DNA of 64,000 nt from Flavobacterium gelidilacus DSM 15343 (GTDB lineage: Bacteria; Bacteroidota; Bacteroidia; Flavobacteriales; Flavobacteriaceae): contig NZ_AUGN01000001.1 in the NCBI RefSeq assembly GCF_000422685.1, forward strand, positions 62,001 to 126,000, written 5' to 3'. The translations under genes were made by a program, and so were the position numbers. How positions within the stretch are numbered: position 1 is the stretch's first letter; the number at the start of each line of letters is the position of its first letter. This document shows, piece by piece, positions 59,212 through 62,849 of this stretch. The notes under the pieces are model-generated. The model searched no databases. It saw only the letters and a program-made list of their open reading frames with translations, and was not told the origin of the DNA.

Positions 59212-60078
59212 CTACTTCTTAACCTTCCTCCAAACCAGTGCAAACCCTTTCACAACCAAAAAAACGAGAATTCCCCCTACAGCACCAGCCAAAAATTCCC
59301 CTACAATAGCAGGCAATCCTTCCAAAGCATGATGTACAAATTCAATGTTATGCACAAAGATACCACCAGATACCAAGACTAGGGCAACAGTACCTACAAA
59401 AGCAAGTCCTTTTATGATTAACGGAAGTGTTTGTATCAACAGTTTTCCTATTGATTGAGAAGCCTTACTTTTTCTTTTGGTCATCACAAGACCTAAATCA
59501 TCCATACGCACTATAGCGGCAACCACTCCATAAACTCCTACAGTAGCAAGAAAGGCAATTATAGAAACCACAATTATTTGTGTCGTGATTGTTTTTTCCA
59601 AAACCGTACCTAAAGCGATAATAACAATCTCTACCGACAAGATAAAATCGGTAACTATAGCGGCTTTTATTTTGGCTTTTTCTTGCACGACTAATTCCTC
59701 TGGGGTTAAATTAGTGCCTTCAATGACACTAATTGCTTTCGGATGAGGTACAACATATTCGTATATTTTTTCAGCAGCTTCATAAGCCAAATAAACAGCC
59801 CCTAAAATAAGTACTACCGTAATCAACCAAGGCACAAAATAACTCAAGACAAAAGCAAGTGGCAAAATAATAAGTTTATTAAGAAAAGAACCCTTAGTAA
59901 TTGCCCACAAAACCGGAATCTCCCGAGAAGAAACAAAACCCGATGCCTTTTCAGCATTAACCGCTAAATCATCACCCAATATTCCAGCCGTTTTTTTAGT
60001 AGCTATTTTACTCATCACAACCACATCATCCATCAATGCTGCAATATCATCTAACAATGCAAATATTCCTGAAGCCAT
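59212..60078 (-). CDS. DUF808-family membrane protein
   Basis: 288 aa. The N-terminus MASGIFALLDDIAALMDDVVVMSKIATKKTAGILGDDLAVNA (shown in parts across residues 1-42) is the hallmark of DUF808/YedI proteins. Several hydrophobic segments follow (LSYFVPWLITVVLILGAVYL and others). Function unknown. It is 38 bp downstream of the GIY-YIG nuclease gene on the same strand, so read-through is likely. Confidence 0.93.
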   Translation of the reverse strand: MASGIFALLDDIAALMDDVVVMSKIATKKTAGILGDDLAVNAEKASGFVSSREIPVLWAITKGSFLNKLIILPLAFVLSYFVPWLITVVLILGAVYLAYEAAEKIYEYVVPHPKAISVIEGTNLTPEELVVQEKAKIKAAIVTDFILSVEIVIIALGTVLEKTITTQIIVVSIIAFLATVGVYGVVAAIVRMDDLGLVMTKRKSKASQSIGKLLIQTLPLIIKGLAFVGTVALVLVSGGIFVHNIEFVHHALEGLPAIVGEFLAGAVGGILVFLVVKGFALVWRKVKK

Positions 60079-60116
60079 TTTATATATAATTTTTTATTGA
60101 ATTTAATACTTTTTTT

Positions 60117-60422
60117 TTATGGTATATAGTTATTCTTAATATCCTCATACAAATCCCTCCAATCAGGATTCATACTATTAATTAATTTTTCTTTCGCAGC
60201 TCTATTACCTGCTTTCAATTGTTTTTCCCTAGCAATGGCATCACCAATCATAGGAAATTGTTCAAAGTAAACCAACTTATCTAAATTATACCGAGCCGAA
60301 AACGAACCTTTATACTTTTTCTCTTTGTGTTGCATAATCCGTTGTGGCAAATTAGAAGTAACACCAATGTATAACACGGTGTTATTCTTATTCGTAATTA
60401 TATAAACAAATCCTGTTTTCAT
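60117..60422 (-). CDS. Small GIY-YIG endonuclease (URI type)
   Basis: A 101-aa single-domain nuclease. The catalytic strand pair is FVYIITN and LYIGVTSNLPQR (the YIG Tyr is present; GIY appears as VYI), followed by the conserved Arg in PQRIMQH and Glu in AREKQLK. No DNA-binding domain is attached. Start is 60422, immediately next to the hairpin-repeat cluster that begins at 60456. Family members are frequently annotated as excinuclease-like, though they lack all UvrC parts. The target is unknown; a link to the adjacent repeats is inference. Confidence 0.93.
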   Translation of the reverse strand: MKTGFVYIITNKNNTVLYIGVTSNLPQRIMQHKEKKYKGSFSARYNLDKLVYFEQFPMIGDAIAREKQLKAGNRAAKEKLINSMNPDWRDLYEDIKNNYIP

Positions 60423-61110
60423 ACCACCTAATCATTACGTCTTTTTTACCCCGTCATAGCGAGGAACGAAGCTATCTTTTCACGTAACCGTAAACATCAT
60501 AAATTATCTTTCCAACCCACCGTTCACTTCATCAATACCCCGTCATAGCGAGGAACGAAGCTACCTTTTCAACTAACCGTAAACCATCATAAGAACTCCT
60601 TACACGTTTACGTAAAACTTCATAAGAACTTCTTTTCACGTAACCGTAAACCATCATAAAACCTCCTTTCACATTTACGTAGAGCTTCAAAAGAACTTCT
60701 TTCGCATTTTTCTTAACCGTCAACGGCTTGCTTCGTTCCTCGCAAAGACTGTTTTTTTATGATGTATAGTTTTTTTTATACTTCTTACGTAAACGTAAAC
60801 ATCATAAATTATCTTCCCAACTAACCGTTCACACCATCAACACCAGTCATAGCGAGGTACGAAGCTATCTTTTCAACTAACCGTAAAGTTGATAATCATG
60901 CTTTTCAACCCGCCGTTCACACCATCAACACCCCGTCATAGCGAGGTACGAAGCTATCTTTTCAACTAACCGTAAAGTTGATAATCATGCTTTTCAACCC
61001 ACCGTTCACACCATCAACCCCAGTCATAGCGAGGCACGAAGCTATCTTTTCAACTAACCGTAAAGTTGATAATCATGCTTCCCAACCCACCGGTCACACC
61101 ATCAACACCG

Positions 61111-61251
61111 GTCATAGCGAGGTACGAAGCTACCTTTTCACGTAACCGTAAACCATCAAAAAAACTCCTTTCACGTTTACGTAAAGCTTCAAAAGAACTT
61201 CTTTCACATCTTTCTTAACCGTCAACAGCTTGCTTCGTTCCTCGCAAAGAC
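61111..61251. repeat. MITE-like unit with hairpin terminal inverted repeats
   Basis: Starts GTCATAGCGAGGTACGAAGC and ends with the complement of GTCTTTGCGAGGAACGAAGC, about 141 bp. A longer relative runs from about 60542 to 60749 with a 67-bp internal duplication (AACCGTAAACC words at 60575 and 60642). No ORF in either. Confidence 0.65.
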
Positions 61252-61364: not shown

Positions 61365-62081
61365 CTAACTACCTACTCCCCAATGAGGATTGATTCTTGC
61401 CATTTCTTTCTCTAGCTTTTCTATTTCATTTTCCCAAATTGAAATATTTTGTTTAGCATCTTGAATTTGACCTGCGCGTTCGCCTGAAGTTCTAAGAAAT
61501 TTAAATTCTGTAACATTAACCAATTGTTGGTTAGCCTTGTCGAGTTCTTCATTAGCAATATTTAATTCGGTTACAATTTCTTGAATTCTTTTATCTATAG
61601 CAACTTGTTTTTCTCTTGCAATTCTTTCTTCTTCTAAGCGTTCCTTTTCAGCTAATAATTCTTTTTGCTTGGCAATTTCTTCATTCTGAATATTTAGCTG
61701 TTTATTGTAAATGCCAGTTTCAATATTATCTTTTTTAGTCTTTTCAATATTATAATTATGTATAAGTTTTATTATCAAAGAAATCAATAATACAAGTGAA
61801 ACAATTATGATAATAAACGTTTTTTTAGGCAATCCAAATATCTTGTTTTCTTTCTCCTCTAAAATATTTAAATTAATTGGTGGAGGAGTTAATTTACTTT
61901 TAATTGGCGGTGGAGTAGATGTGAATATTATTTTTAATTCTTCTATTTCTTCCGCATTTTGCCACTCTTCTAATCCTTCAAACCATACTTTTGTGGTTCT
62001 TGTAATTTTATGTAATTTTAATTCTTCAATATCAAATGGACCTTTATTTTCTGTGCCATCATTTAAAAAATACTTTTTCAT
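61365..62081 (-). CDS. GYF_2-domain membrane protein with coiled-coil, 238 aa
   Basis: N-terminal GYF_2 (DUF4339) domain (residues 1-50; MKKYFLNDGTENKGPFDIEE and TTKVWFEGLEEW), a Pro-rich linker, one transmembrane helix (about 88-110), and a Glu/Lys/Gln-rich coiled-coil tail. GYF_2 domains bind Pro-rich peptides in other contexts; function here is unknown. It is a paralogue of the next gene in its N-terminal half only. Confidence 0.82.
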   Translation of the reverse strand: MKKYFLNDGTENKGPFDIEELKLHKITRTTKVWFEGLEEWQNAEEIEELKIIFTSTPPPIKSKLTPPPINLNILEEKENKIFGLPKKTFIIIIVSLVLLISLIIKLIHNYNIEKTKKDNIETGIYNKQLNIQNEEIAKQKELLAEKERLEEERIAREKQVAIDKRIQEIVTELNIANEELDKANQQLVNVTEFKFLRTSGERAGQIQDAKQNISIWENEIEKLEKEMARINPHWGVGS

Positions 62082-62168: not shown

Positions 62169-62849
62169 CTATTTTACGCTAGCATTAACAACTTCCCAAC
62201 CTAAACTAGCTACATTATTATAATTTTCTACTTTTAATTTAAATTCCGAAGTTGTATTAGGTGGATAAAACTCATAGAGCATATATTCTGCGGTATTTAA
62301 CAATGTTTTGGTTTTACTATAATAAAAAACTTTCACAGTTACATCTTTATAAGTTGTCATAGTTGCACTATTAGAAATAGTACCATTAATTTTAATATTA
62401 TCTCCATAGAAATTTTCTTTATAAGTACCCGAAGCATTAAGATAATTTAAAGGAGATTGAGCTTCAATTTCTTCTATAGTCATTACACTTTCTTCATAGC
62501 TATATTCAGAGGATGAATTACTAGAATTTAAAGCTTTAAAGATCAAACCACCTCCAAGGTAAATAACTAAAACAATAGCTATTATTTTCAAAGCCTTCAT
62601 AAAATAATTTTTCTTTTTTGGTTCACTTACTTTAGTTTCAGAAAAACTTTGAGGTGCTTCTTTCTTGGTTAGTGGAGGAGGAGTAACCAATAATATTGAT
62701 TTTAATTCTTCAATTTCTGAAGCATCTTTCCAATCCTCTAATCCTTCATACCAAACAGGAGTGTCTTTTGTGATTTTTTTTTCTTTTAATTCTTCAATGT
62801 CAAAAGGCCCTATGTTTTCTGAACCATTGTGTAAAAAATACTTTTTCAT
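62169..62849 (-). CDS. GYF_2-domain membrane protein with beta-rich periplasmic tail, 226 aa
   Basis: Paralogue of the neighbour: GYF_2 domain (residues 1-50; MKKYFLHNGSENIGPFDIEE, TPVWYEGLEDWKDASEIEEL), Pro/Thr linker, one transmembrane helix (about 82-105), then a different C-terminal domain with a beta-sandwich pattern similar to FxLYD-type domains (NASGTYKENFYGDNIKINGT, VKVFYYSKTKT). Function unknown. Flanked upstream by direct-repeat copy 2. Confidence 0.82.
   Translation of the reverse strand: MKKYFLHNGSENIGPFDIEELKEKKITKDTPVWYEGLEDWKDASEIEELKSILLVTPPPLTKKEAPQSFSETKVSEPKKKNYFMKALKIIAIVLVIYLGGGLIFKALNSSNSSSEYSYEESVMTIEEIEAQSPLNYLNASGTYKENFYGDNIKINGTISNSATMTTYKDVTVKVFYYSKTKTLLNTAEYMLYEFYPPNTTSEFKLKVENYNNVASLGWEVVNASVK

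Follow-up and report, generated by a model that had tools for sequence, protein, structure and literature searches.

We propose, at odds of roughly three to one, that a small gene in the window (the whole 64-kb stretch of DNA analysed here) encodes a stand-alone GIY-YIG nuclease that has as its target in DNA the GTC-tagged repeat found both next to its gene and dispersed through the genome. The nuclease probably recognises this cognate repeat, and we put forward more tentatively that it may also actively spread the repeats.

The gene, an ORF with an ATG start at 60117..60422 on the minus strand, encodes a small single-domain protein of 101 residues, of which residues 4-77 match the Pfam GIY-YIG family with an E-value of 1.3e-17. 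The sole further Pfam match, T5orf172, is barely above the cut-off and overlaps the GIY-YIG stretch, in agreement with the first-pass annotation, which had described the protein as having no other DNA-binding domain. The catalytic residues of GIY-YIG enzymes are, in the numbering of I-TevI, Tyr, Tyr, Arg, Glu and Asn, and residues Y7, Y18, R28, H32, E66 and N85 of the window protein are invariant in 18 aligned family members. By both its domain and its catalytic residues, the protein is a member of the GIY-YIG nuclease superfamily. Its AlphaFold2 model is confident (pLDDT 91.8), and the top solved folds for this model are UPF0213 (E-value 2e-4), Slx1 and, more weakly, UvrC. Searches of solved structures with the protein returned no close homologue, the relevant matches being UPF0213, UvrC and Slx1. 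The UPF0213-type chains 1zg2 and 1ywl are the nearest solved chains by sequence profile, and 1zg2 is also the nearest fold, with an identity to the window protein of only 26% in the fold alignment. We know of no association of UPF0213-type GIY-YIG proteins with repeats. No match to the window protein was found among 50,697 phage records at an E-value cutoff of 1e-3. The own genome harbors four small GIY-YIG genes including the window gene, and the word that defines the window repeat is absent within 1.5 kb of the other three. The window gene adjoins a DUF808 gene (59212-60422 for the pair); among the matches listed, this junction is found in the own genome only, and different neighbours also surround the nearest relative. 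In L101 and L112, from two further genomes of this genus, the GIY-YIG gene next to a DUF808-like gene belongs to another clade.

Upstream of the nuclease gene, a 20-nt word, GTCATAGCGAGGnACGAAGC, or near variants of it, occurs in eight copies between 60453 and 61251 and is absent from the rest of the 64 kb, and the word count in 100 shuffles of the window was zero at up to 3 mismatches. Six copies are direct, namely those at 60453..60476 (GTCATAGCGAGGAACGAAGCTATC), 60542..60565, 60846..60869, 60935..60958, 61023..61046 and 61111..61134 on the plus strand, and two are inverted, at 60726..60749 (GTCTTTGCGAGGAACGAAGCAAGC) and 61228..61251 on the minus strand. Part of the cluster is a locally amplified array (60781..61197, repeat family D1), in which unit starts are 88-89 bp apart and each unit holds one repeat. 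The first word begins 30 bp past the start of the nuclease gene, and its stem, beginning at 60456, lies at the distance of 34 bp that had been noted earlier for the first hairpin. Further along, a tandem pair of paralogues, each with GYF_2 at the N-terminus (61365-62081 and 62169-62849), shares a 219-nt direct repeat that is 72% identical. The own genome as a whole contains 16 words at up to 3 mismatches, against none for the reversed word as a control. All repeats in the window lie on the upstream side of the nuclease gene, which counts against our main reading.

The first-pass annotation had called this region a hairpin cluster. The cluster is borne out by the eight copies; however, the fold is weak, since the word as single-stranded DNA reaches only -1.8 kcal/mol with a 5-bp stem and a 10-nt loop, no better than its shuffled versions (z -0.02), and 'hairpin' is thus a generous term for this repeat. 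This short, weak stem counts against our main reading. The stem of this type (hereafter class A) rests on comparison across copies: the arms ATTGC/GCAAT change to ATAGC/GCTAT in the window, and to ATTAC/GTAAT in two copies elsewhere. The outermost stem pair of the class-A word is often broken. The GTC tag is present in all eight window copies, preceded by C in three, A in four and G in one. AT follows straight after the tag in six of the eight, the two inverted copies being without it, and has its complementary partners in four of the eight; none of the window copies has CCA after the second arm.

A homologue of the window protein was found in 119 of the 149 genomes of the genus. We took as close orthologues the best gene per genome down to an E-value of 4e-37, a cut made by rank that gave 28 genes, and read their flanks; this set does not include the additional copy in G109 or the fragments found in G028 and G121. 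The 20-nt word, at up to 4 mismatches, occurs within 200 bp of 26 of these 28 genes, and on both sides of 22, where the word density predicts about 0.13 of 28 genes by chance. Hence, the linkage of gene and word above that of random genes, which had been suggested from position in the window, was found, and the lack of enrichment named as its refutation did not occur. Both exceptions carry variants, L028 having GTCATTGCGAGGAGGAACGACGAAGCAATC at both ends and L023 a related variant upstream, and all 28 orthologues qualify under a looser, degenerate 12-nt word. The next two loci by rank, L049 and L050, were left out, and their inclusion would give 26 of 30: L049 (in G030, 63% identity, E-value 1e-36) is without the 20-nt word and is flanked at each end by palindromes of the type GTCATTGC...GCAATC, with a longer loop, and L050 (in G017), a broken gene, has no repeat. 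For 18 of the 28 close orthologues, an inverted repeat of at least 20 nt has one arm in each 200-bp flank. In three of the 28 loci (L032, L034 and L039) the nuclease gene has an early stop and the flanking repeats persist.

For comparison, we assembled 63 control genes, consisting of 60 small GIY-YIG genes of lower similarity from the genus, hand-picked from the homologue list, and the three other genes of the own genome. Many of them are bracketed by other GTC-tagged palindromes (TTTGTCATTCCCGCGCAGGCGGGAATC, TTTGTCATTTCGACGAAGGAGAAATC, TTTGTCATTCCGTAGGAATCT, TTTGTCATGCTGTCAAGCATC and GTCATGCTGAACTTGTTTCAGCATC); GTCATTCCGTAGGAATC and GTCATTTCGACGAAGGAGAAATC are repeats presumed non-cognate to the window nuclease. 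An inverted repeat of at least 20 nt joins the two 200-bp flanks in 34 of the 63 controls, as against 5 of 59 pairings of randomly swapped control flanks. A sequence within 4 mismatches of the window word lies within 400 bp of 16 of the 63 controls, probably because two of the repeat classes share a GAGGAACGA core. When the repeats were sorted into nine classes, drawn up by us from these same flanks, 46 of the 63 control genes fell into these classes, one of which is class A; 17 of the 91 genus genes carry none of the nine, which counts against the main reading. Mapped onto a tree of 88 nuclease proteins (leaving out L032, L034 and L073), with 'none' as a tenth state, the repeat class changes 18 times, whereas shuffled assignments change 54.9 times on average, and none of 200 shuffles was as low. 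The repeat class thus follows the nuclease tree, and the linkage is both clade-specific and gene-specific. Within single genomes, an inverted repeat of at least 20 nt joins the own flanks of 16 of 36 genes and none of 58 combinations of flanks swapped between genes (Fisher p 1.6e-8), so the pairing is a property of the gene and not of a repeat-rich genome.

The number of words per genome points in the same direction, all comparisons being made on complete counts per genome and with kinship ignored. Genomes with a close orthologue contain a median of 22.5 words, none having zero (n=28), whereas those without one contain a median of 1, with zero in 51 of 117; G030, G028, G121 and G017 (4, 26, 20 and 2 words, respectively) were set apart. 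Word A tracks the genomes with nuclease A (p 6e-12), and word B (TTGTCATTCCGTAGGAATC) tracks the eight genomes with nuclease B (p 9e-9; two of the eight clade-B genes, in G058 and G012, are broken) and does not track nuclease A (p 0.39). However, word A leans weakly to the nuclease-B genomes as well (p 0.046), which counts against the main reading, and 26 of the 117 genomes without an orthologue contain at least 10 words, which counts against the main reading and against strict dependence. Among such word-rich genomes, G085, with 45 words, is matched by neither the window protein nor a clade-B protein, and G087, a single contig, has 58 words and as its best nuclease match only a distant one (E-value 1.5e-7). 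The expectation that copy number would track the gene therefore holds for the medians and not for every genome: the nuclease gene is a strong correlate of word number rather than a strict requirement for it.

The association extends to other phyla. In a plasmid collection the window protein matches 34 records, and in 13 of the 16 loci that we read by eye a GTC-tagged palindrome lies within 150 bp on at least one side, those at L121 being weak; no such palindrome lies close by at L120, L128 or L131, which counts against the main reading, and of these L128 has a poorly covered downstream flank and a frame that runs on. One match is a Neisseria gonorrhoeae homologue with 51% identity over 95% of the window protein, on a 2.17-Mb record filed as a plasmid, and it is flanked by CGTCATTCCCGC...GCGGGAATC copies. 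The N. gonorrhoeae records NZ_CP119140.1 and NZ_CP119142.1, of about 2.17 Mb and filed as plasmids, look like chromosomes from their size. When GTDB genomes were scanned with seven aligned proteins, at least 592 stretches with at least 578 relatives were obtained, of which we took the best 80; according to their titles, these come from Pseudomonadota classes, Deltaproteobacteria, Chloroflexota, Planctomycetota, Nitrospirota, Myxococcota, Omnitrophota, Ignavibacteria and others. Seventy-six of these 80 had enough flank, and with a hairpin arm of at least 7, a GTC-tagged hairpin was found within 200 bp of 61 of the 76 (both sides in 35), and an inverted repeat of at least 20 nt between the flanks in 36. 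By contrast, 80 random places in the same loci gave 1 hairpin, 0 two-sided cases and 1 flank inverted repeat (61/76 versus 1/80, p 1e-27). The remaining 15 of these 76 have no GTC-tagged hairpin within 200 bp and count against the main reading. Most of the hairpins listed beside the 76 have a CGTC tag, an 8-bp stem and a CCA tail. At L121, on a Planktothrix plasmid, the small GIY-YIG gene has a type IIL restriction-modification gene on one side and drmA of a DISARM system on the other, and at L127, in Azospirillum, a repeat-bracketed GIY-YIG gene lies between sufB and sufC.

The arrangement of the repeats bears on what moves. In G130, G113 and G115, for which all words were listed, all 19 pairs whose words are separated by less than 150 bp run plus then minus, with GTC tags outward as in REPINs and start-to-start distances of 52-83 bp; two of them, in G130, adjoin a nuclease gene, and the others are gene-less. 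The same tags-outward geometry, with one word per side, is found around eight close orthologues (L022, L027, L029, L031, L037, L042, L044 and L047). However, the flanking words at L033, L035 and L039 are both minus, which counts against the main reading, and plus/minus orientation is not uniform among the two-sided relatives, 18 of 35 having it (from the best 80 of at least 578). In G108:C1, between 2.39 and 2.67 Mb (including L267, 2480000-2496000), the 21 class-A words among the matches listed are all plus and none minus, and in the part read they separate short genes. At one orthologous intergenic site a repeat dimer is present in some genomes and absent from others: G085 has a class-A dimer there, and among 19 other genomes read at the site, G243 and G044 have a class-A dimer, one has a fragment and 13 have nothing within 230 nt. 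In the remaining three (L273, L284 and L287) the site holds a class-C dimer.

The main rival to a nuclease that acts on dispersed repeats is a variant of homing, in which the nuclease would cut at the repeat dimer and its gene, inserted between the two repeats, would be what moves, the repeats themselves spreading by other means. GIY-YIG is a homing-endonuclease fold, and the recurrence of the tags-outward geometry of gene-less dimers around the eight close orthologues and half of the two-sided relatives (18/35, from the best 80 of at least 578) speaks for this variant. Also in its favour, the nucleases of L022 and L023, although they differ at only 3 of 100 residues, have unlike surroundings, and their DNA ceases to be similar about 13 and about 20 bp beyond the gene. 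Against this, 12 of the 28 close orthologues share one genomic context, so the gene moves rarely, and gene-less dimers outnumber the bracketed gene in G113 and G130. A comparison of the DUF808 neighbourhood yielded no clean empty site for the nuclease gene among the matches listed. We consider this variant unlikely, though by no means negligible.

Another explanation, that the repeats serve the nuclease gene in cis, as terminators, mRNA hairpins or autoregulatory sites, and do nothing else, would suit their position within tens of bp of the gene, and REPs are known downstream of genes according to a 2013 survey (Di Nocera, De Gregorio, Rocco 2013, PMC3733652). It seems improbable, since the repeats also occur in these genomes at dispersed places away from the gene, often stand at both gene ends in opposite orientation, and in the A type have a weak stem. 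Alternatively, an HUH (Y1/RAYT) transposase could move the repeats with the nuclease as a bystander. A Y1_Tnp match was indeed found in 24 of the 30 genomes searched, and the own genome has a weak one (G000:C2:22661-22945, 24 bits) about 1.6 kb from a lone word (C2:24565). However, six of the 28 orthologue-bearing genomes (G033, G037, G076, G003, G053 and G056) are without a Y1 match and yet contain 2-23 words, the Y1 match nearest to the window cluster is about 8 kb away, and according to the survey CGTC repeats and transposase genes are not associated, apart from a handful of fortuitous cases (PMC3733652). RAYT as the mover of the repeats is therefore disfavoured, and we regard it as very improbable. 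Lastly, although REPs are intergenic and numerous, so that repeats might pile up beside any small gene alike, this chance explanation is refuted by the random places (1/80 against 61/76 of the best 80 of at least 578 relatives) and by the same-genome swapped flanks (0/58 against 16/36), and we give it almost no weight.

In the mechanism that we favour for a nuclease targeting its own repeat, the enzyme would bind the tag and stem while the strand is single, during replication, repair or the entry of transforming DNA, and would nick there. A metal-dependent nick at the cognate repeat is suggested by the GIY-YIG fold and the kept catalytic residues, and a single-stranded substrate by work on the Ssn nucleases. 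More speculatively, such nicks might recruit recombination or repair, by which repeats could be copied or amplified, as perhaps in the 88-bp array, and which might keep nuclease and repeat matched. GIY-YIG enzymes hydrolyse DNA and are not known to rejoin it, so spreading would need host repair or recombination; it is the weakest step of the proposed mechanism. Taken to its widest, the proposal would be that in many phyla the CGTC-tagged REP superfamily owes its maintenance and spread to a hydrolytic GIY-YIG nuclease rather than to an HUH enzyme. Every nuclease clade would then be tied to a GTC-tagged palindrome of its own, the gene would often stand in a repeat-gene-repeat unit with the outward-tag geometry of the solo dimers (an analogue of REPINs), and nuclease and repeat would co-diversify; to this reading we give somewhat less than even odds.

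Among the closest known systems are the Ssn nucleases, reportedly described by Chenal et al. in Nat Commun in 2025 as members of the GIY-YIG superfamily with site-specific cleavage of single-stranded DNA; the same work is reported to link them in Neisseria to NTS, a repeated sequence, to show that they affect transformation, and to count their homologues in thousands. The window nuclease family is probably the Ssn family, and the N. gonorrhoeae homologue is presumably Ssn itself. Both systems have a small stand-alone GIY-YIG protein and a short cognate repeat that occurs next to the gene as well as dispersed through the genome; the window pair belongs to another lineage and has a different, short-stemmed repeat. 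The first-pass annotation had suggested a new kind of pair. This is not supported, for comparable pairings with other repeats are common around small GIY-YIG genes of many phyla, and the Neisseria Ssn nuclease with its NTS has reportedly been published, so that the window pair is probably better regarded as a member of the Ssn kind. If the Ssn work is as reported, the present results tie Ssn nucleases to the CGTC REP superfamily; otherwise the pairing itself would be new. A full-text literature search listed no paper joining GIY-YIG and REPs that looked relevant; one, on Moraxella catarrhalis, contained both words.

The RAYT/TnpA-REP system shares with the window pair a gene bracketed by the repeat that it is thought to process, and solo inverted-repeat dimers elsewhere, and differs in that its enzyme is an HUH tyrosine enzyme whereas ours is a GIY-YIG hydrolase; Pfam found no HUH motif or catalytic tyrosine (Y1_Tnp) in the window protein. 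The CGTC-tagged REPs, as described in the 2013 survey, occur in five phyla, with Bacteroidetes listed, and the CGTC-1 of Neisseriae is dRS3 (PMC3733652). There they are defined by a terminal CGTC (TGTC or CCTC in many), a stem of 8-9 bp, a loop of 4-5, complementary A and T in the first two stem positions, and a CCA tail (PMC3733652). Measured against this description, the window repeat has in common the GTC tag, the AT at the stem base in six of its eight copies (four with complementary partners), and the occurrence in dimers and clusters, but its stem is 5 bp instead of 8-9, its loop is 10 nt, it has no CCA tail, and C precedes the GTC tag in only 3 of the 8 copies. Since it departs in stem length and CCA tail, we call it CGTC-like and not a CGTC REP; the repeats of some other clades and other phyla do agree with the REP definition in stem and loop. 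It is likely that small GIY-YIG nucleases are the partner of the CGTC-tagged REPs, which have been reported without a dedicated transposase. The partner enzyme was left open by the survey (PMC3733652), and the pairing of nuclease and repeat described here is specific by clade, by gene and within genomes. It offers dozens of natural enzyme/target pairs in which to learn how a 100-residue nuclease may read a short tagged repeat, whether it spreads that repeat, and how the two co-evolve.
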